NCBI RefSeq assembly: GCF_000715505.1
Contig: NZ_JHEH01000023.1
Location: forward strand, 1 to 53,300
DNA: 53,300 bases
Direction of reading: 5' to 3'
DNA from: Thioclava dalianensis
GTDB taxonomy: Bacteria > Pseudomonadota > Alphaproteobacteria > Rhodobacterales > Rhodobacteraceae
The number at the start of each line of letters is the position of its first letter. The stretch's first letter is position 1. Shown one piece after another: positions 1,051 to 27,511 of the stretch. The position numbers were made by a program, and so were the translations under genes. The notes beneath the pieces were generated by a model. It saw only the letters and a list, made by a program, of their open reading frames with translations. It ran no database searches and was not told the origin of the DNA.

Positions 1051-1085
1051 CGCACATCTTGCGCGTGGTTTCTGCCTCTATACCA
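1051..1085 (-). promoter_or_regulatory. Late promoter plus leader hairpin cassette, copy a
   Basis: On the minus strand, TGGTATAGA (1085-1077) is followed after 11 bases by CGCGCAAGATGTGCG (1065-1051). The 15-mer folds as CGCGCA/TGTGCG with one G-T pair and a three-base loop. It sits in the 124-base gap between the giant gene and the tail fibre gene. This copy is 68 bases from the fibre start, unlike the 32-33 bases of the other three copies. Confidence 0.55.
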
Positions 1086-1106
1086 CATCGCGCGCCGTCC
1101 TGAAAG

Positions 1107-4100
1107 TCACTCGCTGCCATAGATGTCTGGAGCAAGCTCCCGGTCGATGAAGCCGCGCAGGCTTGGCGAGATGTAGATCCCGCCCTTCGAATTGCGCGAC
1201 GACGCAATCCGGGCTTTGAGCGAGCGCCGGATCGTGCTGCCATCGATCCGATAGCTGGGCGGGGCGTGCTCGTTGAAGTCGGCAATCGCTTTGCGCATCT
1301 TGTCGGTGATGGGTTTGCGATCCAGAAGCGCCGTCCGCACCTCGCGCAGGATGTTCCCGCGCCGGTCCTGAATGCGGGTCTCCATCCGCTTCATGGTGCT
1401 GTTCTTCTCGTACTGCTCGGTCAGCCGCGCCGGTGTGAAGCCGAGAAGCACAGCCAGCGTCTCAGGCACGCTGAAATGGTCCATGATCGCATCGCCGTTC
1501 CGGTTGAGCGCGCCCTCGCGGGCAAACCGGGCAGCTTGGAACATATCGTTGATGACCTTGGGCGACATGGTTTCGAGACCGCGCATGATGTCGCCGTTCA
1601 TGACCTGATCCCATCCGCGCGCGACGTTGCCGCCGATTGCGAATGTCGCACCCAGAGCCTGCGTTACCCAATACTCATAAGCGTCTTGGCCTTCCAAAAT
1701 CCGATTTGGCGAGCGGAACCACAGATCAGGCATCCCAATCCGGTTGGTCAGATCGATCCCGAGAAGGTGGCCGGGCACGCCGTTCAAAATCATCCCGGCG
1801 GCGTCGTGGCCCAGCGTTTCCACCAAGGTCCGCTGGATATCCTGTTCGAGCTCGTCCTTGCCATCATCGAAGAAGAAGCCGAGCAGCGCGGTAAGCAAGC
1901 CATAGCCCCAGACGCCGCGAATACCGGCATGCAAGAACAGCGATCCGGTGATGCCGATCAGCTGATACCGGGCTTCGCGCCGGATCTCGGGGCTTTCGCC
2001 CTTCACCATCTGATGCATGTCGCGGAACAGACGCCAGAGCATGTTGACGTTGAAGTTGCGGAAGACGGCTGCCACGCGGACAAAATCGTTCTGCATGATC
2101 CGGGGACGCGACGAGTTCTGATAATCGAAATGGGTTTTCCAAGTCAGGTCTGCCGCCTTTTCGACCGCTGTGGTGTGGTCAAAACCCTTGTCGCGCGCCA
2201 TCCGATAGGCAGCTAGGAATGTCACTTCGCGGTTCAGCCGCTCAGCATGGTGGAAGAGATACGAGATCTTCTCCATCACCGCTGCGCGGGCAGGGCGGTA
2301 TTCGATCCCGGCATCACTGATCCCCATCAGATCGTGCGATTGGCTCTTGTCGATCGTTCCCAGATCATAGGCTTCCTTGAGCGCCTGTTTTTCGTTCGAG
2401 TTCAAGCGAGAGGATTTCCCAGCATGGCCCTTGCCGCGCACGAAATCTCCCATCGCGCGGTTCAACTCGCGCGCCGCGACTGCAAACCCGGTCTTTTTAC
2501 CATGGAACGCAGCCAGCACAGGGATGCCGACCACAGTCGTTTGCGTGAGGTTCACCGCGGCTGCCGATGGGGACGCCCCAAGGAAATAGATAAAGGCGCC
2601 AGTGGTCATGCGCTGGCCCAGCTTCGAGCCCTTCGGATTCATCACGAAATCATGGCGCAACCTGATCTCGCGCACGACGAGACCGCTGCGGTTCGGATCG
2701 TCAGACTGTGCCGCCTCATTCTCGGCGTTCTCAAGCGCTTCCTGCATGTCCACCGCATAGCGCAGGCGGGCAAGCTGGTGCGATCCATGGAACATATGGC
2801 TGGCATATGCCCGCATCGCGTCTCCGCTGTATCCCGCTGTTGCCTTGCGGTGGATCTTGCTCTTGCGCACCGAGAAGTCCGGCAGCGATTGAAGCCAGCG
2901 CTGCCAAATCGCATCGAGGATATCGTCACCAACGCCGGATCCAGATAGCATCTGTTCGACATCTGCCACGAAGCTCGGATCTACCATCTCGCGCGATGTC
3001 TTCGGGCTCATGACTCCGGTCTGAACCTCATAGCCCTCGGCGCGGAGCGCCTTCGCTTCGGCAGCCTGATCCTTTTCATTCTCGAATTTCGAGAACGATA
3101 CGACCTGACCGTCCTTGTCGCGCGCGGTGACGAAAAAGTTTCCAAAGCGCGCGAGCGGGAAGTACGGGCCTTCTAGCTTATTGCTCTCAAACTTGGCGCG
3201 CAATTCGCGGATCCGCCCGGCTTTGCCCCACTCACCGCGCATCTGCGCGCTTTTAAGCATTGCATCAGCCTCGGCCAGCGCCTCGGCCTTCGCCCGCCCG
3301 GTCAGGCCGTCTCGGGCTATCTGATCGATCATTTTCGCATGCTCGCGCTCTGCACGCTTGACGCTGTATTCCATCGCCTTTTTGGCGTTGTATTCGACCG
3401 CCTCTTGGAAGTCGCTGTTGAGGTGTTCATAGTCGCGGCGCACCCGCGAAAACAGCGTCTGAAATTCCTTTGGCAGGGCGTCGAAACGCTTTTTGAGAAG
3501 CGCGTAACCACTGCGGCGCGTCTCGTCGCTGGCGATACGTTCAGAGGCTTCCTTGCCAGTCTTCGATTGAAGGCCATAGCGATTGACAAGCCACGGGTCA
3601 CGCGGCTCCGATTTTGCAATGAAGGGTAGGGATGGGTCGATCCCTTCAATCGTCGCGTCGTGCATCAGATCCATCAGCGCGGTCATGTTTTCCTTGCCGA
3701 GCTTGGTCAGCTTCCGCCACTCTTGTGTGGTCTTGCTGTATTTCTCGTGCATCTCGTTGCGCAGGGTATCCATCTTCTCCTTGAGCGCGAGATAGGTCTG
3801 GGCCGCTGGAATGTTGCGGCCCATCTCCGCGATCAGGGCGCGACCGGGAATAAGCGATAGCGACGAGAACCCGCCTGCACCATCCATGGCATTCGTCATC
3901 GCATAGCGCACGAAGTGCTTGCGGGCGGCAAGCATGGATCTGCCTTTGAAGGGCGGCAGTGTCGACAGGCTGGGCGGAAGACGCCGCGCCTCTTTCGCGA
4001 TTTCGGAATCCGAGTATGGTTGGGCATTCGCAAAACGACCGGGCGCGCTCTGAACGTCCGTCGGCGCGGCGCGCGGAGTGAAAGCACCGCCACGAATAGT

Positions 4101-7100
4101 ATCAAAGATCGTCGCGGCATTGGGCGCACTATGAGCGCGCAGGACCGTTGCGATTGCCCGGAGGAACGCGCGGACCTTTCCAAGCGCCCGGCCGAGCACG
4201 GAGTTATCCGTTCGCGCCTTGTCGCCGTGTTCAGCATACATCTCAGCGATAACTTCTTCGAGCTGGTTGCTCTGGCTGAGATCCGGGTACGCCTGTGCCA
4301 CCCGCTTGCGCAGATCGTCTCGCTGGCGTGCCGCCGCGATCAAGGTCTGCCACTCGGCGCGGGTGAAAAGACCATAGGGCCGATCCCACAGCTTCGCATC
4401 ACGCAGCGCGTGTATGATCTCGTGATCCATCACTCGCGCCCGATCTGCCGCGTCCGCGTCGATCTCCACCCGCCCGGCATGGTAGCGGCCCCGGATCGGC
4501 GTGCCTGCGGCATCGAATAGGCCGCGCACGGCGGTTGCCGTCACCTTCCCAGAGATGCCAACCTCCGCAGCCAATCTGTTTAGATCGTGCGAGATCCGGC
4601 GCATTTCCACGCGCTCGCGGGGCAGCATCTTGACTTTTTCGTCCGCAATCTCCAAATTTATCGGAGCGGGGTCGCCTTCCAATGCCGAAGCGCGGGAGTT
4701 TTTGTCCTGGGCCGTGGCGGTTGAAAAGCCGCTGGCCCCGCGATCCATCGACAAATCGTAGTGATAGGTTCCGTCGCGTTTCTGGCGGACCGTGGCAATC
4801 ACAGAATAAGTCTGTCCACCCATCTTAACATCGGCGGAGAACTTGTGAATTGCCAATATCTCCTGACGCGCGCGCTTGTCATTCTCCGACGAAACCAATC
4901 GACCCTTTTGCAAGATTTGTTCGATCGCAGGCACGAGGCGATAGAGCACATCCCCCTTGCGACCGCTGACCTTCTTCGCGCCAACGCCATCGAAACCAAT
5001 CTGCCACCCCGTTTCAGCATTGGTGACGGTCTTGTCGGTCAGGTTTTCCCTATACCAAGCATACGCCTTCTTCCCGAGCTGGCGAATGTCGCTCCACTCT
5101 CCAAGCTCGTCGCCAGTCAGGCGTGCGACCGGCTCTTGATCCATGTCACGCTGATATTTGGCGTCGGGTTCACCCTCAGTTGGTTGATCGAAGACATCAA
5201 GCGGCTCCCAGCGTTCGGGCCCCCCGTCCTTGCCCTCATGCTTGATCGCCTTGACGATAACAGGCTCGTGGCTGTCCATGTCCTCGGCCTCGAAGTACCC
5301 GACTTGCCCGAACTGGTCGCTGCCCTCGATACGCTCGCGATTTGCGGCAGGGGCGCCCCATTCCGACGAATACTGCCTGCCGGCCAATTGGAACTGGAAT
5401 TGTCCCGTGATCGGCTTCGCGCCATCGTCGTTGACCAAGCTGCGCCCCTTGTCATCCAACAGCGCAAAATGGTTCGGACCAGCGTTTGCCGTCTCTTGGG
5501 CAAATTTCACCTCTTCCACGCGCGCCAGTGCGCTGAGCTCGGCCACGCGCTGCTCGGCGCGCTCTACCTTCGAACGATCCACGCCTTTTGCGATGATCGC
5601 CTCCATCTGCTGACGGAGTTCTGCACTGCGCGAGAGCGCGCGCTCATTTGCGGAAACGAGATTTCCGGCCCGATATGAGATGTTCTCAGGGTCGAACGAG
5701 CTCAAGAGCTTGTCGGAATTTCGGAAATCCTTTGCTGCAACTGACATTCCATCATGCAGATCAAACCCAGCCACATCAGCATTTGCACCCAGCGCCACCG
5801 AATAGGCCACAAGATCACTTCCGTCGCCGCGCGCAAAAACATGGATCTCGGCGCCATTGCCATATGGGATCGAGATCTCCGCCTGACCATTGTGCGCAGC
5901 CCTTTGCAGCTTGGAGAGCGTGTCATAGACGCTCGCCTCATAAGGATTGCTGGGGCGTTCCTGCCAGCGCTTCGGCGCTTCGGGCTTCGGTGGTAGCTTT
6001 TCCCATTCCTTGCGCGGCTTGTCCTTGTTGCGCGCCCGGATAGCCTCGGCCTCCGCGTCGTTCTTCTCGCGTGCCGCAAAATAGGCCGCGATCTTTCCTT
6101 TCCAATCAGCGAGATATGTGTCGGATCCTTTCGGCCCCGCCATCTTCGTCACTGGCCCATACGTTGCGATAGCCTCGCGCCGCACCTTCTGGTTTCGGTC
6201 GAAGGCATCAAGGAAGTTTCGAGCCTCTGCCTCACTGCGCAGATCATTGGCGATCTCGGCGCGCGCTGTGTCGCGCTCCTTCTCGGCAGTCATCTTGTCG
6301 AGGAAGATCCGCTTGCCGGTCGATTGTGCCATGAACTGTGCATATTGGTCCGCATCGCCCGAGTCCTCTTCGAGCTTGTCGGTCGCGGCGTTTAGGAATG
6401 TCTCAATCCCCTTCGCTTTGCGCTCTAGGATCTGCCACTGCACCACATCGGCGGTCTTTTCGGTCGAGTATGCAGTGATCTCGACTTCAAAGCCGTCAGG
6501 GTCAGCCTCGTAGAACATGTTGCCTTGTCGAATGATCCGCCCTTCGCGTTGCTCCATGTCTGAGGGACGCCACGGTGCATCGATATGATGCAGCGCGACG
6601 AGGCGCTTTTGAGCGTTCGTTCCCGCACCCATCTTTTGGGTCGAGCCGATCAGAACGCGCACCTGACCTTCGTTCACCTTCTCGAAGAGATCCTTCTTCT
6701 TCGGCGTGGTGTTGTAGTCATGAATGAAGGCGATTTCTTTTTCGGGGATCCCACGGTCGATAAGGATCGACCGCAAGTCATCGTAGAAGGAAAAGCCCGT
6801 GTCAGCGGTGAACATGGCGGCGGGCGCGTCTTGCCCGGCGCCGTTTATCCATTGCTCAATCTGGTCGCGCTTCTTGTCGCTTGTCGCAGGGCTTGAAGTT
6901 GTGGCGTCGAGCTGGTCCACGAGATCCGCCCACTGAGAGGCGAATGACTTATCAGCACTCTGGGCAAGCGTTTCCTTGAGCTTCGCACCCTTGATGTCAA
7001 GCAGGCCGGAAGCTTCACGGATGATCCGTTTCGCCTCTTTTTCAGCGCTTTTGCTGGGTGTGGACATGTCGCAGAACACAAGCTGAGTGCCGCGCCGTTC

Positions 7101-10100
7101 GGTGTTGGCCTTGTAGTTGCGCATGATCTGGTCGGCTGCGCGTGTGACTTTCGCGCCTTCTTCACGCCCCAGCGTTGGATCGATCGTGCGAATGTCAACG
7201 CTGGCCTTTCGCGCGTCCGAAAGCACCCACAACGGGTTATCCACCTTCGGATATTCCTTGTCGCTCTTGTTGCGCTGGATTCCGGCCATCCGCATGACGA
7301 GATAGCGCACGAACTCGGTCATCTTCTGGGTCGGGGGCGCAAGATCGATCCGGCGGCCACCGCCTTTAACCTTTGGCGTCGGGAAGCGCGTGGAAACGTG
7401 CTTGGACGGGTCTTTCTCCGCGGCGTTTTTCGCCTCCATCTGCTCGCGGTACATGCGCTCAACCTCCGGGCGCATGACGATATCGGCAAACGAGCGGTAG
7501 AGCTGGGCGAGAGGTCCGAGATTGATCATCCCCGCCATCACGTTGCGCTCTTTTAGCTGCATCGAGGCGGTATACTCGAACCGGGTCTGATCTTGGATGA
7601 ATGACGCCTTCCATGCATCGAAGTGCGCAATTCCCATCGCCTTCATCGACTTCGGGATCAGGTACTTCATCACGGAATAGATCTCGACAAGGCTGTTTGA
7701 GATCGGCGTGCCTGTCAGGAAGGCCACGCCGCCGTTCTTCATCGTCTGGAGCGAACGCACTTTCATGAGAAGATCGAATGCGCGTTCAGATCCTGCCGGT
7801 GGGTTCATCCCGACGAGCTGGCTGGCCGTGGTGGAATATTCGAGGTTCTTGAACTCCTGCGCTTCATCGAGCGCCAAATAGTCGACGCCGAGCTCATGCC
7901 ACGGGATGATGTTGGAATCTGCGCGCGCTGCGGCCTTTTCGTCTAGGCGCTTGAGCTTGTCTTGCAGCGTGCTGATCCTCTGGCCCATTTGCCCGACCGT
8001 GCGGCGGCTGTCGCCATTTTCCTTTGCGGCCTGCATTGCCGCCTCTAGTTCCTCTAGCTGCTCGGCAATGTAATCCTTGGTCACGGTGTCGTCGTTTTCG
8101 ATCTTCACGAGCTGCGAGTGCCCAATGATCACCGCATCGAAGTCACCCGTGGCGATACGGTTGATCAACTTGGCGCGGTTGGCAGGTTCAAAGTCCTTCT
8201 CGGTCGGCACAAGGATATTGGCGGCGGGATACATCTCCAGCCATTCCTTGCCCCACTGTCCGGTCAGGTGGTTAGGCACTCCGACCACGGCCTTGTTGGT
8301 CAGGCCCATGCGCTTGCGCTCCATGATGCCTGTGATCGCGGTGAAGGTTTTACCCGCGCCCACGACATGATGCAGAAGCGTGACCGGATCTTGGATCATG
8401 CGCCAAGCCCCGTTCTTTTGGCTATTGCGCAGGGAGATCTCAGGTGATGCGCCCACGGTGCGCAGATAGCGCACACCATCGTATTTCCGCTCCGTGACGA
8501 CGTTCACCTTCTCATTGAAGGCATCGAGAATAGTTTGGGCACGCTCTGGGTTTGCCATCGCCCACTTCGGAAATTCATCTCCGATCCGTTCATATGCGGT
8601 CACAGCCTCGCGTGTCGCATCCGCATTCTTGACGCGCTTCTCGCCTTTCTCATCGCGCACGGTATCGTAGATCACGGGCGCCTTGCCCTTGATCGCCGCT
8701 TCAAAGATCTTGCCGGGCTCCATGCGGTCGGTCGAGAACTGGCGCCCGAAATCGTTGGCCGCATAGCCGCTATAGTTCACGGTCGCGATCCCGGCATTCT
8801 GGTAGATGCCAACTTTCGGGCTTGAGTAGCCAAGCGCCGAAAGGAATTGCTGATAGACGGAAGGCGGCATCCACATCGAGCGGATCGAGGGTGTCACCTG
8901 ATCGGCAGTCTTTGGCGGCGGCATCGCCGCTTTCAGGTGCGGAATCTGTTGGCGAAGGCCCGCGTCTTCCGCTTGCTGGATCTTCTCTGCGAGGTTGCCG
9001 GAAAGATAGACCTCGGCCAGCTCATAGCGATCTGTCGCAGGATTTCTGAAAATCAGCGGGTTTGCACCGCTTGTCAGCTCGGAAACGACCGATTCCACAT
9101 CGGAGTTGGCGAGCGATGCGATGAACCCCGGATCGATATATCCGCGCTCCTGCATGGAGATGTGCAGGCCATCAGCTGCGCTGGCCACGTTGGTCGGGAG
9201 CTTATGCGGATAGATCACGCGCTTTGACAGGATCGGTGCCGGGCGGGCCGATTCCTCTCGTCCATCACGCGCGGGCTTGTAGTTGAGCTCAAGCGCCATC
9301 TCGGCGCCTACATCGCCGCGCAGAATAGCCTCGTTCTTCGAGCTGTTGAGGAATCCGTACTTCGTCTTGAAGCGCCTGTATCCCTTATTCAAATCAGCCC
9401 GAAGCGTCTCCATATCCGGGTGATCGTTGCGCTCGGCGCGGATCAGTGCCTTCACCTTCTGGCGCAGATTGAGGATGGCCGAGAGCCGGTCAAAACCATC
9501 ACGGCCAAGACGCTTAGCCTCGACACGCGTTCGGAAGGTATCGAGCGCCGCCGCCGCGCCCGGGCTTAGATCATCGCTCGAAAGCAGGTTCGGCAGTTCA
9601 TCGGCCAGCGCCTGCATGAACTTCGTTTTCTGGGGAAGAGGATCGCCAGCAAGATCCACGACGCCCGCGCTTTGCGCATGGTTCAGCGCCTCTTGGCGAG
9701 CATTTGCAATATCGGCGCCGCTCTTTGCCATCTCGCGCAGGGCGTCGATTGCTCCGATCAGATCGGCGGATGCCTCCGCTTGGTCACGCCAGAAGGTATC
9801 AGGGGTGATCTCCTCAACAAAGCGCCCGCCCATCGGGTCGCTTTCGCCGCGCATGACCTTTCCGCTGTCGTCGAGCGCCATTTCGCCATAGGCGAGGCTG
9901 GAAGACGTGGCCGGGGCAGTGGCTGCGTCCTCAAGCGCCTGCTCGCGCGTGGGCAGGGTCGCCTTGATGCTATCGATGGCGTCGGTCAGCGAGGCTTCCA
10001 GATCGCGGCCATCGGGATGCACCGTGAACTCTCTGCGCTCCTCGCCGGGTTTGACGCGATTGGCATACATCTCGCCGTCCATCGCCGCGCGGCCAAGTAT

Positions 10101-13100
10101 CATCTCAGGGTTTTTAGCGAAGTACCCGTTGAGCTTCGTTCCGTTGGGACCATCCTGATCGACCTTGAGCCACGAGGTATCGCCCGCGCTGTCACCCTCC
10201 GCGCGCCGCTGGAAGAAAACGATATCTGTGACGACGCTGGTGTTTGCGTTGTCGAGAAACGCCGTGTTGGGCAGCCGAACTGCCCCAAGGAAGCGGAATT
10301 TCGGCGCGAGCTTGCTGCGCGCCTCTGCATTTGCGTTGTCGAGAAAGCGGTGAGTGACCACCATCCCCATCACGCCGCCTTCACGCAGAAGCTGCCCGGT
10401 CTTTGCGATGATATAGTTGTGGACCTTCATCGAACCGAGATCAGGGTGCATATCGCTCTTGATCTGGGTGGATCCAAAAGGCGGATTGCCAATTGCCACA
10501 TCGAAGGCGCCTGCGCGCAACGGCGCATCTTGGAACCCTGTGTCACCGTAGATCGTAGCCTGCGGATAGAGCTGCTTGGCGATGGCTGACGTGATCGGGT
10601 CGAGCTCGGCGGCATACCATTCGGTGCCCCGCGCCATATCGGCGGGTTGAAGGCCAAGGAAGTTGCCGCTGCCGATTGTGGGTTCGAGCGCGCGCCCCTT
10701 TTCAAAACCGAAATTACGCATCGCGCGCCACATCGCCTTAATGACGGGGCGGGAGGTATAGTGCGCGTCATTGGTAGAGCGCATGGCAGCGTAATATTCG
10801 TCAGAGGTCAAAAGCGAACGGAGCTCAGCCTGCGCGCGTCCCCATTGGTTCGTTTTGCCCTTGTGCTTGCCGTCGAAGACGGTTTTCAGACCGCCCCATC
10901 CAACCCAGCGAGCGAGAACTGCCTGTTCGTCTGGTGTGGCTTGGCGCTTCTCGCTGTCGAGCTGGCGCAGTAGGCGCAGCGCAGCAAGGTTTGCCTCAAG
11001 CTTTTTCCCCTCGGTGCCTTCGCCCAAGGGAAAATCATCCGTGATTACGAAGTTTTCGGTTGCAGGCTGCTCGGGCTCTCGGGCCACGGTTCCAGATAGG
11101 TCGGACGAACCGTCTCCCACGCCTCGCGGCGCGTCATCCCCGGGAGCTCTTGGCGCGCGGTTTTCATTGCCTTCTCCGCGTCCATCGTCACGCGATCCAC
11201 CATCAGGCTGTCGTTTTGCGTCCAGTCGCGATCCGGCGCCCCGGCCTGCCAGTGCTCCTTGATCTCTTGCTTGATCGCCGCGTTGTTCATCCGTCTGGCC
11301 CTTTTCGTTCGGATCGAGCTTACCATCCTCTGATACATCGGGTCGACCTGCATTTTCGTCAATATCCCGGCGGGCCTTCGTATTCTCGCCCTCTGTCGGC
11401 TTCTGAGGGGCAGATTTCGCCGTGGGTGCTGTTGTTTCACCCTGCGCTGCAATCTCCTTGACCTGCTTTGCAACAGCGTCTGGCCCATCCATACCAGCGA
11501 TATCGACGCCATGATCCTCCATCATGTCGCGGGCGCCATTATACCATGCGCGCAGATAGGGGCGCAGCTTGGCCGGCGTAGTGCTCAAATCGCGCGCGAT
11601 CGCATTAGCAAGATCCAAGAACTTGCGCGCGCCAGCCTCCATGTGGAACGCGGCCAATTCGGTCCCAAGCGCCAAGATTTCAGGGTCAACGCCTGAGTTC
11701 AGCTGATTGCGGAGTTTCCCGGCCAGCTTCGCACGGATCTCGGCGGCGCGGTCAACGCTCACAAGGGTATTGCTCGCGCCCCAATTTGATTTGTTCTCCG
11801 CCTGCGGCTCGGGATCTGCCTCCGGCGCGGGGGCAGGGGCGGCGCGCTCCAGCGGCCCGGCCTTGAGCTCGCGGGCGTCCGGTTCAGTGCGGTGGGTGCG
11901 AATCCGATCATCTGCTGGGTTCTTCTTCCATCCCGCGCCATCCTTCACGACGCTTTCGACCTTCACGGACCAATCGCCATCTTTGCCTTCATCGAAGGAG
12001 ATCACGCGATCCGCGCTGCCGCCGTAGGCGTGGACGATATTGCCCGGTGAGAAGTAGTCGCGCAGGCGCTCCATGCGCGCGGCGCGGGCGGCTTTTGCGT
12101 TCTGGCGCTTCGGTTTGGTCTTCGGTTTCGGCGGGGCCTCTGGGCCAAAGACGGATTGCGTTAGGCGGTGCCATGCCTCGGGATCGCTCCGAATAGCGCC
12201 GTGCAGTTCACCACTCAGCTTCGAGGAAAGCGATTCATCGAGTTCCGCGCCTCGTAGCGCTGCCTTGCGGTCTGCCTTACTCGCATTCGTCCACCACCAA
12301 TCGAGGCGGCGCGGCCCATGCGGTTGAGGGTTCAGCGGATTTTGCTCTGCAACCTGATCTGGCTCATTCGCGCCCTGATCTGCGGTTTCGTCAACCGATT
12401 GGCCCATATCGGCCGCGGGCTTGGCCTTCTTGAAGGGGAAGGACAGTTCGCCGCTCGCCGGGCGCTTGAACGCCTCCTGATCGCTGCCCGGGTTCAGCCA
12501 GTCCTTGAGACCGGCCACGTTGGTCTCAAGGAATCCGCCAAGTCGGTGATCGGCCTTCCCATCCGAGAAGCCGCCCCGATAGACCTTGAGCGCGGCCTCA
12601 CGGTTCGGCGTGCCAATGATGACCTTGTGCTCATCGAATTTGCCGGTCTTCTCGTCGGCCTGATCAACGATCATGACATAATCGCTGTCGGGCTTGTCGC
12701 CCATGTAGAAATCGATGTGGTCGCCGTCCGCGCCCTCGGTGCCTTTGAAGTAGCCATAATGGGCGGGCATCTTGACCGACCATGCCTTGCCATCCGGCCC
12801 GGTGCCTTTGCGCTCGGATCCCTTGGCGTTCTCGAAGGTCAGGCTTTCGCCGTTCCAAGCCGTATGGCCCATCTTGTAGTTGCCAGCCTCCTTTTGCCCG
12901 TCCGTGGGATCAGGGTGCGCTTCGGCGGCAGCCTCATCGATCTTCTTCGCCTGCTCGGGGGCCGGTTGCGGCGCGGCAGTATCGCTCTCGGGCGCGGCGG
13001 TATCACCCATCAGATCCGGGTGCGCCTTCGCAAGGTCATCCTTACGAACGAACCAGCCACCGTCCTTCTTGAACGAGTACTTGTCGATTTCATTGGCGTG

Positions 13101-15463: not shown

Positions 15464-15501
15464 CGCACATCCTGCGCGGTTATGTATCTCGCACTATAGC
15501 A
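15464..15501 (-). promoter_or_regulatory. Late promoter plus leader hairpin cassette, copy b
   Basis: TGCTATAGT (15501-15493) is followed after 14 bases by CGCGCAGGATGTGCG (15478-15464). The start codon of the giant gene (GTG 15431) comes exactly 32 bases after the hairpin. The cassette lies in the gap after the 464-residue gene, giving the giant gene its own likely transcript. No convincing -35 box is seen. The extended -10 TGC may compensate. Confidence 0.65.
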
Positions 15502-17661: not shown

Positions 17662-18644
17662 TATGCCATCGCCTTCTTGGTGCTGCGCACCGAGCGCGTG
17701 GGAAGTCGTTTTTCGACGCGATCCATCTTATCGGAGAGCTCTTTCACTGCCCCCATGGTCACGCCGACCGCATCCATGATGTTGATCCGCTTGCCGTCGC
17801 CCAGGCCGGTCTCACGCTGGAAGTCCTCGGCATAGGGTCCGATATGCTCGCCACCATCGGCCATCCCGTCTTTATATTTCCATTTTTCGACCGGCATCTT
17901 TTTGACGACATCGAGAACGCCGCGCACTGGACGCTTGTTTTCTTTGGCGTCCTTGGATGACAATGAAAAGGCCATGCCAGCCAGAGAACCAAGCCCGCCA
18001 AAAAGTGACGACTGATTGGCTTGGTTTGCTTGATAGCTACTCATCTGCTGCTGGTATTGGGTGTTCAGAAGGTTTCCCTGCTGCCCATATCCCTGCATCG
18101 CACCTGAGAAGCCAGACGCAGTAGACCCATTCGAAAGCCCCATGGATGTCGCAGGGTTCACGGCGAGTCCTTTCCCGAGATTGATGGCGTTTGCCATTTC
18201 GGAATCGTTCTTTGCCTCGGCCTGTGTACGGGATGCCACGCGCTGCGCATTTCCCGCGCCTGCGGTGGCGAGCTCGGTCGCCAATGCCGTTTTGCGTGTC
18301 CCATCTATCGAGCGCCCAGAGCCGGGCATGACGCCCTGCGCCTGCAACTGGCGTTCCTGCTGCCCGGCTGCCAGAGCGGCACGGTTTGCGACCGTTGCCT
18401 CGGAACGGGTAACATCGCCCGCGACCTTGCCATAATCCGGCCCGGCTTGAGCGTTTGCGATGTAGTCATTTTCCAACGGCACAAAAGTGCTGGTATACCG
18501 CGCCCGATCATCAGCCGCCCATTTGTTCGTGATCTTGGCCTGATCTTCGGCCCATCCGAGATAGTCACGACCAAGCTCCGCGCTTGCCAGTGCGGCCTGA
18601 CCAATAGCAGGATCAGGGCTGGGAGCGCTTCCACTATTACCCAT
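17661..18644 (-). CDS. Virion protein with C-terminal S74 intramolecular chaperone domain
   Basis: 327 residues. The N-terminal ~100 residues are helical. The middle (~100-225) is Gly/Ser/Gln/Asn-rich (MQGYGQQGNLLNTQYQQQ). The last ~100 residues look like the S74 self-cleaving chaperone: SSKDAKENKRPV near 226-238 with Ser and Lys spaced by five as in the catalytic pair of endosialidase chaperones, then VEKWKYK, GEHIGPYAEDFQ, and a terminal trimeric-coil-like helix. Such domains normally end tail spikes, while this protein has no fibre-like beta region. It sits between GNAT and lysozyme genes. ATG 18644 is preferred over GTG 18653 because AGGTGA lies 5-6 bases before it. Confidence 0.75.
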   Translation of the reverse strand: MGNSGSAPSPDPAIGQAALASAELGRDYLGWAEDQAKITNKWAADDRARYTSTFVPLENDYIANAQAGPDYGKVAGDVTRSEATVANRAALAAGQQERQLQAQGVMPGSGRSIDGTRKTALATELATAGAGNAQRVASRTQAEAKNDSEMANAINLGKGLAVNPATSMGLSNGSTASGFSGAMQGYGQQGNLLNTQYQQQMSSYQANQANQSSLFGGLGSLAGMAFSLSSKDAKENKRPVRGVLDVVKKMPVEKWKYKDGMADGGEHIGPYAEDFQRETGLGDGKRINIMDAVGVTMGAVKELSDKMDRVEKRLPTRSVRSTKKAMA

Positions 18645-19152
18645 GAGTTTCACCTTTCAGATTGAGCCAGCGGCAGTCGCGCTTGCGCATAGAAAACATG
18701 ATGCCATCCTGCCCGTTGTCCATGCCGCCCGGAACGGTTCCAATCTCGTTGAAACCGAGGTGGCGAAGTATCTTGACCCCCTTGGCGTTGTCTGCGCCGA
18801 TGATGCACTGCATGCGCGCCACGCGCAGGAGCCAGAAGATATATCCAGCAAGCCCGCTGATTATGTTGCGTGAGGCCCACGCCGCCGATTCATCTGTTGC
18901 GACATGGACATCGCAGTAGCTCTCATAGACGCGAACAATCACGACCACCGCGCGTAACCGGTCGGCTTTGATGTCGAAAACGCCCAAAGCGCGGGCCTGC
19001 ATAGGCCACCGACCGGTTGAAAGCTGGAGACGCTGCGCAGCCCATGCCAGAAGCGTCGGCTGATCGGTATCGGTCAAGCATAGCCGCATCCCGGCGCCGA
19101 CTTGGGCGCGATAGGCATCTTGCTCGGGCAGGATCTCAGAGATTACAGACAT
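18637..19152 (-). CDS. GNAT-like acetyltransferase encoded in the virion module
   Basis: 171 residues from ATG 19152. The fold resembles small phage GNAT proteins: an N-terminal strand-helix part, a central hydrophobic helix (IISGLAGYIFWLLRVARM), then GADNAKGVKILRHLGFNEIG, which fits the acetyl-CoA-binding loop and the typical LGF ending, and a final strand. Substrate is unknown. The start at 19152 is 32 bases after the leader hairpin, as for the giant gene. The in-frame ATG at 19194 is inside that hairpin. The ribosome site is weak (GTGG). It overlaps the next gene by 8 bases and is the first gene after a terminator and a new promoter. Confidence 0.7.
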   Translation of the reverse strand: MSVISEILPEQDAYRAQVGAGMRLCLTDTDQPTLLAWAAQRLQLSTGRWPMQARALGVFDIKADRLRAVVVIVRVYESYCDVHVATDESAAWASRNIISGLAGYIFWLLRVARMQCIIGADNAKGVKILRHLGFNEIGTVPGGMDNGQDGIMFSMRKRDCRWLNLKGETHG

Positions 19153-19184
19153 GTGGCCACGCGGGAAAAGTTCGGAACGCTGGC

Positions 19185-19218
19185 CGCACGTCATGCGCGG
19201 AGATGGTGAATTCTAGCA
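19185..19218 (-). promoter_or_regulatory. Late promoter plus leader hairpin cassette, copy c
   Basis: TGCTAGAAT (19218-19210), 10 bases, then CGCGCATGACGTGCG (19199-19185). One stem pair is a mismatch (A-C) compared with the other copies. The GNAT start follows 32 bases later. A perfect terminator hairpin ends just upstream, so this marks the start of a separate transcription unit. Confidence 0.6.
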
Positions 19219-19220
19219 GA

Positions 19221-19717: not shown

Positions 19718-19732
19718 TGTTTTTCCTTCATC

Positions 19733-22262: not shown

Positions 22263-22266
22263 GGCC

Positions 22267-23850
22267 TTAGCCCCCCATCAGCTCATTGAAGTCGCCGGCC
22301 ATTTGGATCATCGAGACCGACATATTGGTTTCGATCTCGATCTCATAGTTCTGGCTGAGATTGTTAGGCAGCCGGGCTGCCTCATTCACAGCGCTGCCGA
22401 TCGCGAATAATGCGCCGTCTGCATAGATGCGATAGGTCAGTTCAGGGGTTGTGCCGCCACCATCCGCATCGATCATGATCACACCAAAGCTGGTGATAGA
22501 AGGATAGTAGAGCTTGCCCGTGCGCCACACCTGAGTAAGGGGGGAGCCCGCATCCCATCGCTTCACCTGAGCGCCGGTATCATTGCCCGCGAGGTAGTGG
22601 ACGTATCCGGTCGTCAGATCACGCCAGAAGCCCGCACAGGAAGCGTCTGCGGCTGCATAGAACGGACGGTCCCCGGTGATGTCGATGAAGCCGAGCGAGC
22701 GCTCACCGCCGACCGGTGCCGCCCACGAGAACATGTATCGGCCATTATAGTTCGTCGCGGTGATCGATGTGGGGTTCAGTTCGCGCCAATCGGAGATTGA
22801 GAAGATCTGTCGGCTGATCACCTGGGCGGAGCCATCGGGCCCGATCTGCACGAAACCTTCGATCGAGGGGAACACAGCCTGATAGCCGAGATCCACGATG
22901 CCGCGCTTCGATAGGCAGGGCAACTCGCTCTCAAGCTGGGTCTGGGTCATGTTCTCGGGATGTGTCCCTTGCATGATGTATGGCGTGCCGGTGGTCAGCA
23001 CGATCAGGCTTGACCCAAGCGCTACGAGTCCGACGACATCATGGGAGACGAGAAGCCGGTACTTCTCGGGCCATGCGTGCGGGATATAGGGCTCGCAGAA
23101 CAGCACCTGTTTGCCTGAGAACGCAGCCATCATGCCGTTCGGCATCGAGACAATACCCACCATGTCGGCAGGCGGCTGATCATAATCGACCGAATTTATC
23201 GGCTCCTGCATCGGATCGTTCGCCAGATCATGGACAAAGCTCACGCTGTTGATCGAGATCTCTTTGACGAAATAGAGCGTCGTTGCTCCGGCAAGGTCCG
23301 TTTGGCTGCGATATACTCGCATCTTAGAGACGTTTCGATCTGCCTGCGGCTGGGAGAACCCCGAGACTGTCACCACCGTGCCATCGCCGTAGTAGATCGG
23401 ACGGCTGGCGGGCGATGGCGGGCTTTCTTCGCCAAAGCCGGTGACGAAGGTATAGACGTAGAGGATCGTCTCAGCTTCCGGGTCATCGCTTTGGAGCTCG
23501 CCGGTTGTTGCAATGCTGGGCGCGTCGGCGGGCGGGTTGAGCGCCAAATCGTAGCTGGTGCCGCCTTGAAAGAGCTTTGGGCTGCCGTCGCCAGTGATGT
23601 AGAGGCGATCCGCCGCAACCGGGCCCGGAACGGCATCGACCACATCCATCCACGAGAGCCATTGCCCGTTGAAGCGGTAGATCGTGCGCGCTTCGGCCCC
23701 GAGTGTCGCTACGTCTTCCGCGTCCTGCATGGGGTCGAGCGCACCACTCTCAAGGCGGGTGTTGCGCGCAACCGTGGCATAGCCGGAGGGCAGGAGGCGC
23801 GCATTCATGCGCGGGATCGCGCCTTTAAAGCCTGTGATCCGTTCGAGCAT
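22267..23850 (-). CDS. Tail hub/stabilisation-type structural protein (position of P22 gp10)
   Basis: 527 residues from ATG 23850, which has GGAGG 5 bases upstream. An open frame runs further upstream but its extra 107 residues are the shadow of the preceding gene. The N-terminus (MLERITGFKGAIPRMNARLL) and repeated aromatic beta strands (YVYTFVTGFGEESPPSPAS, MRVYRSQ) are typical of a protein found in many podophages after the DUF6682 adaptor, likely a beta-propeller-like closure protein of the portal/tail channel. The assignment to a gp10-like role is by order of genes and not by clear homology. Confidence 0.7.
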   Translation of the reverse strand: MLERITGFKGAIPRMNARLLPSGYATVARNTRLESGALDPMQDAEDVATLGAEARTIYRFNGQWLSWMDVVDAVPGPVAADRLYITGDGSPKLFQGGTSYDLALNPPADAPSIATTGELQSDDPEAETILYVYTFVTGFGEESPPSPASRPIYYGDGTVVTVSGFSQPQADRNVSKMRVYRSQTDLAGATTLYFVKEISINSVSFVHDLANDPMQEPINSVDYDQPPADMVGIVSMPNGMMAAFSGKQVLFCEPYIPHAWPEKYRLLVSHDVVGLVALGSSLIVLTTGTPYIMQGTHPENMTQTQLESELPCLSKRGIVDLGYQAVFPSIEGFVQIGPDGSAQVISRQIFSISDWRELNPTSITATNYNGRYMFSWAAPVGGERSLGFIDITGDRPFYAAADASCAGFWRDLTTGYVHYLAGNDTGAQVKRWDAGSPLTQVWRTGKLYYPSITSFGVIMIDADGGGTTPELTYRIYADGALFAIGSAVNEAARLPNNLSQNYEIEIETNMSVSMIQMAGDFNELMGG

Positions 23851-23864
23851 CGCTGCCTCCGCTC

Positions 23865-24524
23865 TTAGAAGCCGATATAGCGGGTGCGCGGGCGCGCCCG
23901 TTGCTGACCTCGGATATTCCCTGAAAAATTGGTGTCGCACGCCCGCTCGAATTTGCCCGCGTGGTAGCCTGCAAGCTTGAGTTGGGTGAACGGCTGGTTG
24001 GGCATTGAGAATAGGCGCTCCAGCGCGCCATGAGCGATAGCAGAGCCGTGCTTGATGAACAGGAAGTCGGGGACCACATCGCCCTTGTGCTCCGGCGTCA
24101 TGCTGGCGATGCCAATCGACATGGTGTTGTCGTTGCGCGGCGTGAGGAACAGCGACAGATCGAGCTTGCACGGCTGGAACGGGATCACCGTGATCGTGTC
24201 TGGGCTCACCTGTGTGATGTAGCGCGGCGGGGAGTCCGTTTGCGCGAGATCCTTCGCGTCAAAGCTCGAATACTGGACCGGCACGAGATCGATCTCGCCG
24301 TTACAGGTCGCAACCTCAAACTGATAGATGGTCGCATATTCGGGGCATGCCACCTCGCCGCCCTGCTCTGTGAGGTCGACTTGGGTCACATAGCGCCAGC
24401 ACCGGGTGCGCTCGCAGAAGTCGATGGCTGCGAGGCGCAGGCTCTGTAGAATGAGCGGGGTGGACGCCTGTGTGCATTGCGGCCGCACGAGGGGGATGAA
24501 CTCAGCGAGGCTGATGGTCGGCAT
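23865..24524 (-). CDS. Head-tail connector-region protein
   Basis: 219 residues. N-terminus MPTISLAEFIPLVRPQC, then LQSLRLAAIDFCERTRCWRY. This helical opening recurs in podophage connector modules, but I cannot name a family with certainty. The middle is beta-rich. The C-terminus is Arg-rich (RGQQRARPRTRYIGF). AGGGGT lies 5-6 bases before ATG. It starts 3 bases after the adaptor gene and probably acts in the neck between portal and tail. Confidence 0.65.
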   Translation of the reverse strand: MPTISLAEFIPLVRPQCTQASTPLILQSLRLAAIDFCERTRCWRYVTQVDLTEQGGEVACPEYATIYQFEVATCNGEIDLVPVQYSSFDAKDLAQTDSPPRYITQVSPDTITVIPFQPCKLDLSLFLTPRNDNTMSIGIASMTPEHKGDVVPDFLFIKHGSAIAHGALERLFSMPNQPFTQLKLAGYHAGKFERACDTNFSGNIRGQQRARPRTRYIGF

Positions 24525-24527
24525 GGT

Positions 24528-25244
24528 TTACCCCTTCTGCGGCACGCCCGGCTGCATTTCCGTGGTGTTCGGGTTCTGGGTGTTGGTCAGGCCCGTCCGC
24601 ACGCCCAAGGCGCCAAGGAACTTTTGATAGTGGGCGACGGCGCGCTGTGCGCTCCCGGCCATGTTCATGTCCTTCGAATAGGCGTAGTAGAGCACGCCAT
24701 CGATCAGGACAGATTGATAGACGGTAGAGAGCGGGATTGTCGCATCGTAGGTCTCGATATCGAGCGCGTTCGAGCCAACGGGCAGCTTCTCGGGCTCTAC
24801 CGCACCAAGCACTTCCATCTTGCCGGTGCCATCATTGCCCGGGAAGACATAGAAGCTGCGCGGGGCAAGCTCCTCGAAGACGATATGTGTCACCACCTGG
24901 TTGAACGGCACGGAGTTGGTGTCATGCCAATTGGCCATCTGGCTATCGAGGATTTCGCGCTCAATCGGGGTGACGATTGGGCCAGAGACACGCGGCTTGG
25001 CGTCAACGTCGCTGGTGATGTTGCGCACCGCGCGCAGGAGCAGCGAGAAATCCTCGGGGATCTCCTGATATGTGCCTTCGGCCAGCGGGATAACTCGGGT
25101 CTCCGCAAAGGCCGAAGGGCGATGCAGGGCGATCTCCTGCATCGTGTCATTCAGGCAGTCGTTGAGCTCCGTGACAGTCCACCGGACATTCCCGGCATCA
25201 GATAGGATCGCACGGGCGCGTTTGAGAATATCCTTGGACTGCAT
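24528..25244 (-). CDS. Phage adaptor protein (DUF6682-like)
   Basis: 238 residues. The start (MQSKDILKRARAILSDAG, RWTVTELNDCLNDTMQEIAL, HRPSA) has the helical signature I associate with DUF6682 adaptor proteins, which occupy the head-tail joining position of podophages (compare P22 gp4 or T7 gp11 in role). A later segment, YQSVLIDGVLYYAYSKDMN, is also typical. GAGGAG lies 8 bases before ATG. It comes after the coat and decoration genes, as expected of a connector. Confidence 0.75.
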   Translation of the reverse strand: MQSKDILKRARAILSDAGNVRWTVTELNDCLNDTMQEIALHRPSAFAETRVIPLAEGTYQEIPEDFSLLLRAVRNITSDVDAKPRVSGPIVTPIEREILDSQMANWHDTNSVPFNQVVTHIVFEELAPRSFYVFPGNDGTGKMEVLGAVEPEKLPVGSNALDIETYDATIPLSTVYQSVLIDGVLYYAYSKDMNMAGSAQRAVAHYQKFLGALGVRTGLTNTQNPNTTEMQPGVPQKG

Positions 25245-25249
25245 CTAGC

Positions 25250-25774
25250 TCACTCCTCGCTGGAGATACCGGCCTCGGTGAGGGCGGCTTGTTCGGCGCG
25301 GATCTTCTCGATCAGCGTGTCGCGCTTGGCGTTGTGGTGCGGTTTGCGGTCGAACACCTGCTCATATTTCGCAGCAAGATCATCGTCCGAGAGGGTTTCG
25401 AGATCATCAGCCGCATTCGTGGGCTTCTCGTCCTCGTCGTGGGACTCGTCCGTGGTCTCGTCGCTTCCTTCGCTGCCCGGCGCGGCGTTCAGCGCGGGCG
25501 AGATCTGCGCGGGATCGGGCTCTTGCTTCACGCTTTCCGGCTTCTGCGCCGGGGCGGCAGGCGCTTCGGGCTTCTGCGCGGGCGTTTGGTCTTCGGCCTC
25601 GTCGGGCATGTAGACCTCGTAGCCCTCGGTGATCGATAGCAGGCGCTTGATGTGCGAATTATTTTTCACATCAGCGACGTGATCGCCCTGATCGTTCGGC
25701 GTGAAGGCATAGTTGGCGCCCTCAAGCGTCACGAGAGAGCCACCTTTGCGTTCAATCTTGCAGCGGATTTCCAT
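25250..25774 (-). CDS. Acidic structural-region protein with possible HeH/SAP-like C-terminus
   Basis: 174 residues. Residues 1-55 form a small beta-rich domain (MEIRCKIERKGGSLVTLEGA). Residues ~60-120 are a Pro/Ala/Glu/Asp-rich linker (PAQKPEAPAAPAQKPE). The end, SDDDLAAKYEQVFDRKPHH to TLIEKIRAEQ, looks like the short helix-extension-helix motif seen in small head proteins. Function unknown, perhaps head completion. The ribosome site GAGGA is 8 bases before ATG. Confidence 0.65.
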   Translation of the reverse strand: MEIRCKIERKGGSLVTLEGANYAFTPNDQGDHVADVKNNSHIKRLLSITEGYEVYMPDEAEDQTPAQKPEAPAAPAQKPESVKQEPDPAQISPALNAAPGSEGSDETTDESHDEDEKPTNAADDLETLSDDDLAAKYEQVFDRKPHHNAKRDTLIEKIRAEQAALTEAGISSEE

Positions 25775-25804
25775 CTGTCAGTTCCTCATGCTTTGATGGA
25801 GAGA

Positions 25805-25826
25805 GGCCAGCCCCAAGCGGCTGGCC
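25805..25826 (-). terminator. GC-rich hairpin after the decoration gene
   Basis: GGCCAGCC-six-base loop-GGCTGGCC, a perfect 8-base-pair stem in the 64-base gap below 25839. There is no U-run, so it is more likely a partial terminator or an mRNA-stabilising hairpin than a full stop. It ends the coat/decoration segment. Confidence 0.45.
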
Positions 25827-25838
25827 CCATAGGGTCGA

Positions 25839-26279
25839 TCAGACGTAGCGGTAGCGAACCGCGACGGTGATCTTGTCGGTGCCAGCTGCGACATCGGCAG
25901 ACAGCTTCACACCAATCGAACGGTGCTTGGTGTTGTCCTGACCGGCAGCCAGACAGGTGCTGAGCGGGATCCGGGTTTCCTTGTCGGCCACATCGATGGC
26001 CGCGCCGAACTCGGTGCCGACCGCGCGCACGCTTTCCTTGTCGCCAACCGCGCCGTCCATGACGCCGATAGCGGCAGTCGTGGTATCGAGGCCTGCGCCA
26101 ATGACGATCATGTCGGTCAGCTGTGCGGTGGCCGGGATGACGCCGATTTCGAGCGTGTCGGTAGCGGCGGTGAAGGGTTTGGTGAACGTGTGCTCATAAA
26201 GCTCGAACACCTCTTCGCCAGCGCAGTCGGGGATCATCGCGACGGCTCCAGCGATAATGAACTTCGATTGCTTGATCAT
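25839..26279 (-). CDS. Probable head decoration / capsid accessory protein
   Basis: 146 residues directly after the coat gene. Sequence is Ala/Val/Thr/Asp-rich and beta-prone (DTLEIGVIPATAQLTDMIVIGAGL, quoted only in part as ATAQLTDMIVIGAG), ending VRYRYV. This fits a small capsid-surface protein made in large amounts. GAGGAA lies 7 bases before ATG. It is bracketed by two GC-rich hairpins, which would uncouple its level from flanking genes. Family not recognised and the decoration role is inferred from size, composition and position. Confidence 0.65.
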   Translation of the reverse strand: MIKQSKFIIAGAVAMIPDCAGEEVFELYEHTFTKPFTAATDTLEIGVIPATAQLTDMIVIGAGLDTTTAAIGVMDGAVGDKESVRAVGTEFGAAIDVADKETRIPLSTCLAAGQDNTKHRSIGVKLSADVAAGTDKITVAVRYRYV

Positions 26280-26310
26280 TTCGATTCCTCAGATGGGGGG
26301 GTGGATGAAG

Positions 26311-26330
26311 GGCCCGGGCGGTGCCGGGCC
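26311..26330 (-). terminator. GC-rich hairpin after the coat gene
   Basis: GGCCCGG-GCGGTG-CCGGGCC (plus strand), 7 base pairs, in the 63-base gap after the coat stop. It lacks a U-run. A leaky terminator or RNA end-protector is likely. Confidence 0.4.
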
Positions 26331-26342
26331 GATCACTTACCG

Positions 26343-27443
26343 TCAGTTTCGCGGCGGCTTCGCGTAGGTGTCGAGCGACATCACGCCGAAGTCGCGATTG
26401 TTGAACCGCGTCTTCTTGAGGCCCACGATGGTACCAGCGACAACAGTCGGCTCGTTCTCGTAGTCCTTCGTCTCTTCCTTCCACATGAAGCGGCCAGCCG
26501 AGCTCACGCCATAGGCGATCATACCGGCCTGACGCCCCATATAGAGGGCGCGCGCGGCGGGCAGATCAGCACCAGCGCCATAGTCGTCATAGCGAATGAC
26601 GCTCTCGTGCGAGTGCAGGATCGTGTTGCCGATCATGCCCAGCCCGCCCTTGAAGATCTTGTTCTTCGATCCTTCGGCGGCGGCGGCAGCCTTCTGGATA
26701 TCGAGCCATCCCTTGTCGCCGGTATCGGTGCGCAGGAAGTGCTCTTGGAACGGCGACATGACCGTGACATAGCGATCCTCGCCCTCGACGGAGCAGGGTA
26801 CCATGTTCGCGGTGTCGGGATCGCGGGCGCGCATCATGCGGGCCGTGGTGTTGGCCGCTTCGATCAGCTCGCGCGTCATGCCGTCAGCAACCGTGATCGT
26901 CGCCTTCGAGGTCGCAGAGTTGGGATAGAGCAGGTGCTGCGCGTCGGGCTGCTGGAACGGGTTGCCAGCGTGGCCGGTATAGTCTTCATCCTCGGTATAG
27001 TCCTCGTTCACGCCGGGACCGCCCGAGAGATACATGAACATGAGCTCATCGAGGTATTTCGACCAGTAATCGCCCAAGCGATTCCGGGCGACGGCACGCA
27101 TGTCGTGCGCAGTGCGCTTGCGGGTCATCCGACCACCAGCCGAAACGGCTTTCCGGGTCTGATCGATGATCACCTCGTCCGTGTAGAACTTGAGGTTCTC
27201 TTCCTTGCCCTCGACGCGGTTGTCGCCCTCAGTGGGCTTGCCGCGCAGCTGCACCGAGAGGTCGAACGAAATACGGTCGCCTTTGTCGGTTTCGAGCTCG
27301 GTCTTCTGTTCGATGATGTTGTTGTCGCCCTTGCCCACGAACTTCTTGGAGAAGTAGGACTTTTTGAGCTGATCAACTGCGAGATTGGCTGCCCATTTCT
27401 TCTGGGCCTTTACATCGCCAAAGGGGATGATCGTCTGGGACAT
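26343..27443 (-). CDS. Major capsid protein (N4-gp56 family type)
   Basis: 366 residues. Matches the N4-gp56-like coat family by its N-terminal pattern (FGDVKAQKKWAANLAVDQLK, SYFSKKFVGKG), the ISFDLSVQLRGKP strand and the RMTRKRTAHDMR segment, with LGDYWSKYLDELMFMYLSG after it. Length is usual for the family. HK97-like fold expected. It has its own promoter/leader cassette (27477-27511), GAGGAA 7 bases before ATG, and hairpins on both sides, as expected of the most abundant late product. Confidence 0.88.
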   Translation of the reverse strand: MSQTIIPFGDVKAQKKWAANLAVDQLKKSYFSKKFVGKGDNNIIEQKTELETDKGDRISFDLSVQLRGKPTEGDNRVEGKEENLKFYTDEVIIDQTRKAVSAGGRMTRKRTAHDMRAVARNRLGDYWSKYLDELMFMYLSGGPGVNEDYTEDEDYTGHAGNPFQQPDAQHLLYPNSATSKATITVADGMTRELIEAANTTARMMRARDPDTANMVPCSVEGEDRYVTVMSPFQEHFLRTDTGDKGWLDIQKAAAAAEGSKNKIFKGGLGMIGNTILHSHESVIRYDDYGAGADLPAARALYMGRQAGMIAYGVSSAGRFMWKEETKDYENEPTVVAGTIVGLKKTRFNNRDFGVMSLDTYAKPPRN

Positions 27444-27476
27444 GATGTTTCCTCGTGTGGATATTTTTCCATCACA

Positions 27477-27511
27477 AGCACATCATGCGCCTTGCATCGG
27501 CGCTTATAGCA
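27477..27511 (-). promoter_or_regulatory. Late promoter plus leader hairpin cassette, copy d
   Basis: TGCTATAAG (27511-27503) is followed after 12 bases by GGCGCATGATGTGCT (27491-27477), matching the other copies at the core GCGCAnGATGTGC. The coat start lies 33 bases after the hairpin. Being in front of the coat gene argues that the cassette drives strong late expression. Confidence 0.65.

Follow-up and report, generated by a model that had tools for sequence, protein, structure and literature searches.

The stretch of DNA analysed here, 53,300 nucleotides of contig NZ_JHEH01000023.1 from Thioclava dalianensis (hereafter the window), carries on its minus strand four copies of a cassette in which a promoter-like -10 box is followed by a small hairpin, and the question it raises is what such a repeated leader does for the genes behind it. 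The minus strand corresponds to the late region of a Bcep22-like podovirus, a group with which it has the capsid, the portal, the giant DarB-like gene and the gene order in common, and it encodes the major capsid protein, the portal, the terminase, an internal virion protein, an acyl-CoA N-acyltransferase and a giant DarB-like polyvalent protein. The exact motif CGCANGAYGTGC is found four times in the window, always on the minus strand, versus an expectation of 0.21 +/- 0.46, none of 100 shuffles reaching four, and TGG or TGC stands before each of the four -10 boxes (TATAGA, TATAGT, TAGAAT and TATAAG). An earlier inspection of the sequence (the original prediction) had placed a cassette at each of these positions, and all four stand. 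Computation revealed that the cassette is conserved, that its hairpin pairs with the start region beyond chance, that the two folds exclude each other and that a gene for a CsrA-like protein is linked to it. We propose, with a probability of roughly 0.6, that each cassette is a late promoter joined to a translational leader with two alternative folds, which a phage CsrA-like protein would switch on.

When the leaders are read side by side, complementarity emerges between the hairpin's 3' half and the segment that contains the Shine-Dalgarno (SD) sequence and the start codon, a second and longer downstream partner that the original prediction had missed. Moreover, the complement changes along with the hairpin, as in the pairs GGAGUGC/GCACUCC, GAGUGC/GCACUC-AUG, GACGU/ACGUC-AUG and GGAGCGCC/GGCGCUCC. 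This pairing was evaluated by a swap test, in which the arm of each leader is paired with the start region of the same leader and, in turn, with that of every other leader. Over 56 leaders, duplexes of the own type average -14.8 kcal/mol versus -10.4 kcal/mol for the swapped ones; for 37 representatives, the values are -15.0 and -10.7 kcal/mol, being -15.7 versus -10.9 in the 15 capsid representatives and -14.5 versus -11.4 in the 22 non-capsid ones, with 0 of 20,000 permutations in every case. No pairing effect is observed with a control arm from the stretch immediately 5' of the hairpin (n = 27; 18,343 of 20,000 permutations) or with the reversed arm (n = 37; 11,011 of 20,000). Also, a gene-blind pattern scan of viral contigs gave 73 stretches, 33 of which pass a filter for a start codon and an SD sequence; in these leaders, at least two of which (L094 and L136) also belong to the first set, the own duplex is again the stronger one (-13.8 versus -11.4 kcal/mol; 0 of 20,000 permutations).

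The 19 of the 56 leaders dropped as relatives for the tests on 37 representatives were named in the script before its result, and they include the poorly pairing capsid leaders MCP_L080 and MCP_L083, both of which the 56-leader test keeps. Left out of the pairing test were the leader at position 16751 of L032, whose start codon is unclear, and the capsid leader of Atu_ph08 (L081), whose annotated start overlaps the motif. Annotated starts inside the hairpin motif are found for POI1126 gp26 (L074, 18521), the Pavtok lysis gene (L076, 42147) and the Atu_ph08 capsid gene (L081, 32379), and the true starts of these genes probably lie 23-29 bases further downstream. A separate observation concerns the capsid leaders of Pavtok, Itty13, LASTA and Parlo (L076, L077, L079 and L080), where the best partner lies 10-15 bases before the start codon and a shorter second complement nearer the start is visible by eye; possibly, these leaders are three-way switches.

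The small hairpin and the long pairing use the same bases and are therefore mutually exclusive. In the 37 representatives, folded without protein, the free leader reaches -25.1 kcal/mol versus -17.2 kcal/mol when the small hairpin is forced, a gap of about 8 kcal/mol, and the small hairpin is nearly weightless at equilibrium. Forcing it raises the unpaired fraction of the stretch between position -14 and the start codon to 0.51, compared with 0.29 in the free leader, with an increase in 35 of the 37 leaders; no rise is observed for window copy 1 and MCP_L061, and copy 2 is unchanged at 0.48.

In the proposed mechanism, the transcript would begin just before the hairpin, from the late promoter. 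The first fold would be the small hairpin, GCGC[ANGA(N)]GUGC, which lies close to the 5' end and is predicted to be a site for a CsrA-type protein, and in the second fold the 3' half of the hairpin (ANGANGUGC and about 6 more bases) would pair with the SD sequence and the start codon, hiding the ribosome site. The phage CsrA-like protein, whose gene comes after the terminase-portal genes and just before the capsid gene, would hold the nascent first fold and keep the 3' half off the start region, so that capsid translation would be on. In phages with more copies, lysis, DarB and tail/injection genes would be switched on together. That the protein binds the leader hairpin, and that binding would activate rather than repress, is inferred. 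The original prediction had already considered the hairpin as a binding site for a phage factor controlling late translation, a suggestion that now gains support, the candidate factor being the phage CsrA-like protein.

Within the window, the capsid and the acyltransferase copies behave as the two-fold model requires (all features given here and below are on the minus strand). For the capsid gene, copy 4, the -10 box TATAAG, extended by TGC (27503..27508), is followed by the hairpin GCGC[AUGAU]GUGC at about 27477..27491, which is conserved in relatives, and by an occluding partner arm that covers the SD sequence and the start codon (27442..27457). The own duplex reaches -14.3 kcal/mol against a swapped mean of -10.8 and is present in the minimum free energy (MFE) fold; the major capsid protein itself (26343..27443) is recognized by phrog_334 (E = 1.2e-115) and PF13252. 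For copy 3, the box TAGAAT (19210..19215) and the hairpin CGCGC[AUGAC]GUGCG (19185..19199) precede the first gene behind them, an acyl-CoA N-acyltransferase-like gene (18637..19152; phrog_4470, E = 3e-22 over 18637-19149), and the occluding arm at 19150..19160 includes the start codon (own -14.1, swapped mean -11.1 kcal/mol; MFE fold). The distance from the motif to the start codon is 32, 32 and 33 bases for copies 2, 3 and 4, as had been claimed, and 69 bases for copy 1. That all copies lie in gaps between genes, another earlier claim, holds for copies 2 and 3 provided that the genes start at GTG 15431 and ATG 19152; mechanically predicted open reading frames (ORFs) could alternatively start at ATG 15470 and ATG 19194, within the respective hairpins. 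For copy 2, the GTG 15431 start of the DarB-like gene is matched by annotated DarB starts of the form GTG-GCT in BcepIL02, DC1, LASTA and Parlo.

To follow the element beyond the window, relatives were fetched with the window capsid protein as query, the strong matches having about 58-79% capsid identity. The element or a close variant stands ahead of the capsid gene in every one of the 38 loci printed, a set that includes the window's own IMG/VR record (L034) and several near-copies, with L045, L048 and L056 of the 41 fetched loci lying outside it. The same is true for 11 of 11 named phages, from nine host genera as recorded: BcepIL02, DC1, POI1126, PBC5, Atu_ph08, Pavtok, Itty13, Skulduggery, LASTA, Parlo and Mwe-JY07. 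Extra copies are found at lysis genes in six of these (POI1126, PBC5, Atu_ph08, Pavtok, Skulduggery and Parlo), at tail or structural genes in four (POI1126, PBC5, Atu_ph08 and Mwe-JY07) and at DarB-like genes in three (POI1126, PBC5 and Atu_ph08), as well as in the window. As a side observation, Mwe-JY07 (L082) is recorded from Microcystis, yet its capsid and leaders place it in an otherwise proteobacterial group, and this host assignment may be worth verifying.

The conserved form is GCGC[ANGA(N)]GUGC, a 4-bp stem with a loop of 4-5 bases. The 56 leaders hold 45 distinct copies, with loops AUGAC, AUGAU, AUGA, AGGA and others and one compensated change from G-C to A-U at the stem base, counts that are not a free test because the search pattern fixed most stem positions. 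The hairpin of the original prediction is real, whereas its three-base loop is not the conserved form, because the top A-U pair that it needs cannot form in copy 3. Likewise, the hairpin is retained in relatives and the "fixed geometry" attributed to it is not general, since the motif-to-start distance ranges from 19 to 45 bases in 45 leaders. The idea of a leader peptide starting inside AUGA was abandoned, since other phages have AGGA loops, in which there is no AUG. In 37 leaders, -10-like hexamers (rough picks) stand a median of 15 bases before the stem, which supports, by inference, the earlier idea of a transcript start just before the hairpin; 13 of the 37 score 5 or 6 of 6, versus 9% of shuffles.

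The candidate ligand is a CsrA-like protein of 79 amino acids (P0001) encoded directly upstream of the capsid leader (27560..27799). The ORF was detected at E = 8.5e-8 by a hidden Markov model (HMM) built from the upstream ORFs of 21 relatives, the window not being a seed, and it holds the same place as BcepIL02 gp49, a "CsrA-like regulator". With this HMM, 49 of 53 sequences, namely 52 loci and the window (L034 being the window again), yield a CsrA-like protein; 21 of the 53 had supplied the seeds. It misses L045, L048, L066 and L082; L045 and L048 hold almost no upstream sequence, and in L082 (Mwe-JY07) a candidate that lacks a Pfam CsrA match is visible by eye. Weaker matches of the HMM correspond to displaced genes in POI1126, PBC5 and Atu_ph08. 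BcepIL02, DC1, Pavtok, Itty13, Skulduggery, LASTA and Parlo have an annotated CsrA homologue immediately ahead of the capsid gene, with a short reverse ORF between the two genes in DC1. Moreover, a family profile built without the window protein matches CsrA/RsmE chains at 2.2e-14, an RsmE chain being the best, and the Pfam CsrA cut-off is passed by 4 of 10 phage proteins tested. For the AlphaFold2 (AF2) model of the L035 relative, the first 14 Foldseek matches are CsrA-family chains (probability 1.0; TM score 0.63), the best E value being 0.01 and none lying below 0.001. By eye, the second part of the window protein resembles the first (KIGDATVTVERD... and RMGDSVFQANRV...), as if the fold were partly duplicated, and RsmF, a CsrA relative, appears among its weak structural matches. 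A search of the window's host genome (one genome) gave 0 CsrA matches, the same search having also missed the phage's own divergent protein.

As to how protein and leader may be linked, the loop is similar to CAGGA(U/A/C)G, the CsrA element of the CsrB type, and to ANGGAN, the loop found in RsmE targets (PMC7652899). The sequence leads us to class the leader hairpin as a CsrA-like rather than a canonical CsrA site. GA is present in all 45 distinct loops, but the search pattern demanded it. In the gene-blind scan, a CsrA-like match is present in 13 of 19 leader-like records versus 1 of 14 others (Fisher p = 9e-4). This comparison covers 34 records, mostly longer than 21 kb, among those behind the 73 stretches, without L096, L109, L114 and L131, which are also above 21 kb; L091, which has a CsrA-like match, is unclassified. 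A record was called leader-like when a start codon lies 14-45 bases after the motif and the duplex is -8 kcal/mol or lower, a rule applied by hand after both tables had been seen, and under the start rule of the 33-leader pairing test L106 would shift to the leader-like side. Five of five hand-picked distant capsid relatives lack the motif in a 150-base stretch ahead of the capsid gene and, within the flanks fetched, a CsrA-like match as well. Arg44 of CsrA, an RNA contact (PMC7652899), is Arg in 18 of 36 proteins and His in the window protein, according to an alignment read by eye. In raw counts, Arg44 goes with GGA loops and other residues with NGA loops (15/3/1/17; p = 4e-6; 36 of 38, L072 and L082 left out).

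Several observations weigh against the proposed switch. As regards the pairing, the swap test models no tree, and the guards against kinship are the dropping of related leaders and the use of different genes. When compared with swapped partners, five of the 56 leaders come only 20th or lower among 55 (MCP_L082, 38; window copy 2, 31; MCP_L066, 28; MCP_L080, 23; MCP_L083, 20). In the window, copies 1 and 2 fit the model less well because of where their partner arms lie. Copy 1, downstream of the DarB-like gene, consists of the box TATAGA (1077..1082) and the hairpin CGCGC[AAGAU]GUGCG (1051..1065) and precedes a gene of 327 codons that is open to the contig end (1..982). Its partner arm (1019..1031; own -11.4 kcal/mol, rank 13 of 55; MFE fold) lies 35 bases before the start codon and so not directly over the ribosome site. 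Copy 2, with the box TATAGT (15493..15498) and the hairpin CGCGC[AGGAU]GUGCG, which contains CAGGAUG (15464..15478), stands before the giant DarB-like gene (1107..15431, GUG start; phrog_10089, 2503 bits). Its possible partner extends from the GUG start into the coding sequence (15412..15431), outside the 5' untranslated region (UTR), and appears in the MFE fold only; in the 5'-UTR test this copy is a weak case, with the rank given above. A tRNA-Val (gac) called by ARAGORN within the same DarB-like gene (14589-14680) is probably spurious.

The distribution of the element and the identity of the protein add further points on the same side. The element is missing from the DarB leaders of BcepIL02, DC1, Pavtok, Skulduggery, LASTA, Parlo and Mwe-JY07 and from the acyltransferase leaders of all nine named phages checked, so that only the capsid leader is general, and no second convincing leader is observed in the stretches examined of BcepIL02, DC1, LASTA and Itty13. 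Against Pfam CsrA (PF02599), the window ORF gives E = 0.057 and 13.8 bits, the cut-off being 27. It has an insert of about 23 residues in mid-chain, and its AF2 model (mean confidence, pLDDT, of 78) gives no significant Foldseek match, RsmF (4k59) being at rank 5. A CsrA-like ORF was not found in the 1.6 kb upstream in L066, and 2 of the 13 CsrA-like matches of the gene-blind scan are weak and lie inside long open frames of 189 and 304 codons. Only 15 of the 45 distinct loops contain GGA. Finally, the association of Arg44 with the loop corresponds to only 2-4 independent pairs on the capsid tree; co-evolution was therefore rejected as evidence, being unsupported after tree correction, and the association is kept as a hint.

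The main rival is one in which the same protein would act in the opposite sense. As CsrA does on glgC, a CsrA-like dimer would bridge the hairpin and a second GGA at the SD sequence, block ribosomes and keep the late genes silent until needed. This classic CsrA layout is compatible with the hairpin-to-start spacing, which falls within the bridging range of 10-63 bases (PMC7652899), and with GAGGA at the SD sequence of the window capsid leader. However, 22 of the 37 representatives (29 of all 56 leaders) have no GGA within the 20 bases that precede the start, and the conserved pairing of hairpin and start would amount to a superfluous off state, in competition with the very site of the repressor. 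We consider a bridging repressor unlikely.

A somewhat smaller probability goes to a switch that is real and obeys another trigger, such as temperature, a different protein of the phage or the host, coupling to ribosomes or co-transcriptional folding kinetics, where the small hairpin would form first and the ribosome would bind before the second fold arises. The evidence from pairing and folding is independent of the protein, and 6 of the 19 leader-like records give no CsrA-like match at the cut-off used, with the limits that G006 and G008 among them gave weaker matches with another HMM and that the records may be fragments. Against such triggers, the loop and stem are nearly constant across hosts while their surroundings change (with the pattern fixing most stem positions, as said), as expected if the phage brings along a factor that reads the sequence, and a CsrA-like gene is there in nearly all sequences (the 49 of 53 above).

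The start-region complementarity also bears on explanations at the level of transcription, a 5' end-stabilizing hairpin or a promoter-proximal antitermination site, which leave it unexplained. These are improbable, even though the hairpin follows closely behind a -10-like box in many leaders (the 13 of 37 scored above), and the window holds no Rfam match. The simple 5' cap-like stabilizer of the original prediction fails on the same ground, since it leaves the pairing of the hairpin 3' half unexplained. An N4-type hairpin promoter is not supported: the hairpins sit downstream of sigma-70-like -10 boxes, and no polymerase is found among the families matched by the 33 window ORFs scanned, which are a part of all window ORFs. 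Likewise, an Rfam RNA identity is not supported, the scan of the window having given 0 matches at the gathering score. The motif search in the rest of the 4.18-Mb host genome, a check proposed by the original prediction, was run and returned 24 more matches to the same 12-mer (28 in total); by eye, the promoter-leader layout is not seen in their 50-base flanks, and a host-wide element is not supported on this basis. A chance or DNA-level repeat without regulatory role, which these 24 copies might suggest, is very improbable given four copies in the window versus 0.21 expected and conservation before the capsid gene across diverged phages.

The proposed switch driven by a CsrA-like protein has precedents in two known systems. 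In phage Mu, Com binds a short hairpin beside a structure that holds the start codon and exposes the start, com and mom forming one operon (PMC6483171). The leaders described here would be similar in that a small phage RNA-binding protein and a short hairpin free a start codon. However, Com is a zinc finger with mom as its known target, and the candidate ligand here, being CsrA-like, falls outside the zinc-finger Com proteins and would serve several late genes; in addition, unlike in mom, the predicted binding site is itself part of the inhibitory pairing. In E. coli, CsrA activates ymdA by opening a structure that sequesters the SD sequence (PMC7492729), and the same action by a CsrA-family protein is proposed here. 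In that case, a host global regulator acts through two GGA sites, whereas here a divergent phage homologue would act through one hairpin with the loop ANGA(N), repeated in the late region. With sites of the CsrB/CsrC and glgC type, the leader hairpin has in common a short stem closed by C-G and A-N-G-A in the loop, CAGGAUG being exact in window copy 2 and BcepIL02. It differs in its loop, which falls short of ANGGAN by one or two bases and in most cases has no GGA, and, compared with CsrB/CsrC, in lying at the 5' end of a messenger RNA and not in a decoy RNA.

Phage csrA genes are already known from Bcep22, BcepIL02, DC1, JC1, CSP3, Parlo, SopranoGao and PTXU04, and a CsrA homologue is listed in Bcep22-like phages (PMC7366521, Table 3). 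JC1 and CSP3 likewise have it before the capsid gene, and the JC1 protein was detected in virions by one peptide. Published descriptions treat phage CsrA as a moron, as a regulator aimed at the host or as a modifier of biofilms, or call it untested, and a 2025 screen states that the role of phage csrA in the phage life cycle was previously untested (PMC11879866). Knock-down of csrA in PTXU04 shrinks plaques; this phage was rejected as a ready test case, being a different phage with csrA among its lysis genes. In the texts searched, a set that does not include the founding Bcep22 paper, no statement was found that proposes phage late leaders as the target of phage CsrA. The homologues themselves are already published, and to judge from these texts their proposed link to the phage's own late leaders appears to be new; we regard as the new part a Com-like switch made from a CsrA-family protein and common to several late genes.

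A wider proposal, to which we give slightly less than even odds, is that this whole lineage, recorded from alpha-, beta- and gammaproteobacterial hosts, would run its late programme through a phage-encoded CsrA-family activator of translation that flips shared two-fold leaders on capsid messages and, in a part of the lineage, on those for lysis, DarB and tail, the protein and the loop (GGA to NGA) having drifted together. The protein may even enter the cell with the DNA, as the one JC1 peptide seen in virions suggests. If the proposed switch is true, phage csrA would gain a specific function on messenger RNAs of the phage itself, at a defined site with a partner arm, and a CsrA-family regulator would be at work in hosts without a CsrA of their own, such as Burkholderia cepacia and B. 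cenocepacia (PMC7366521).

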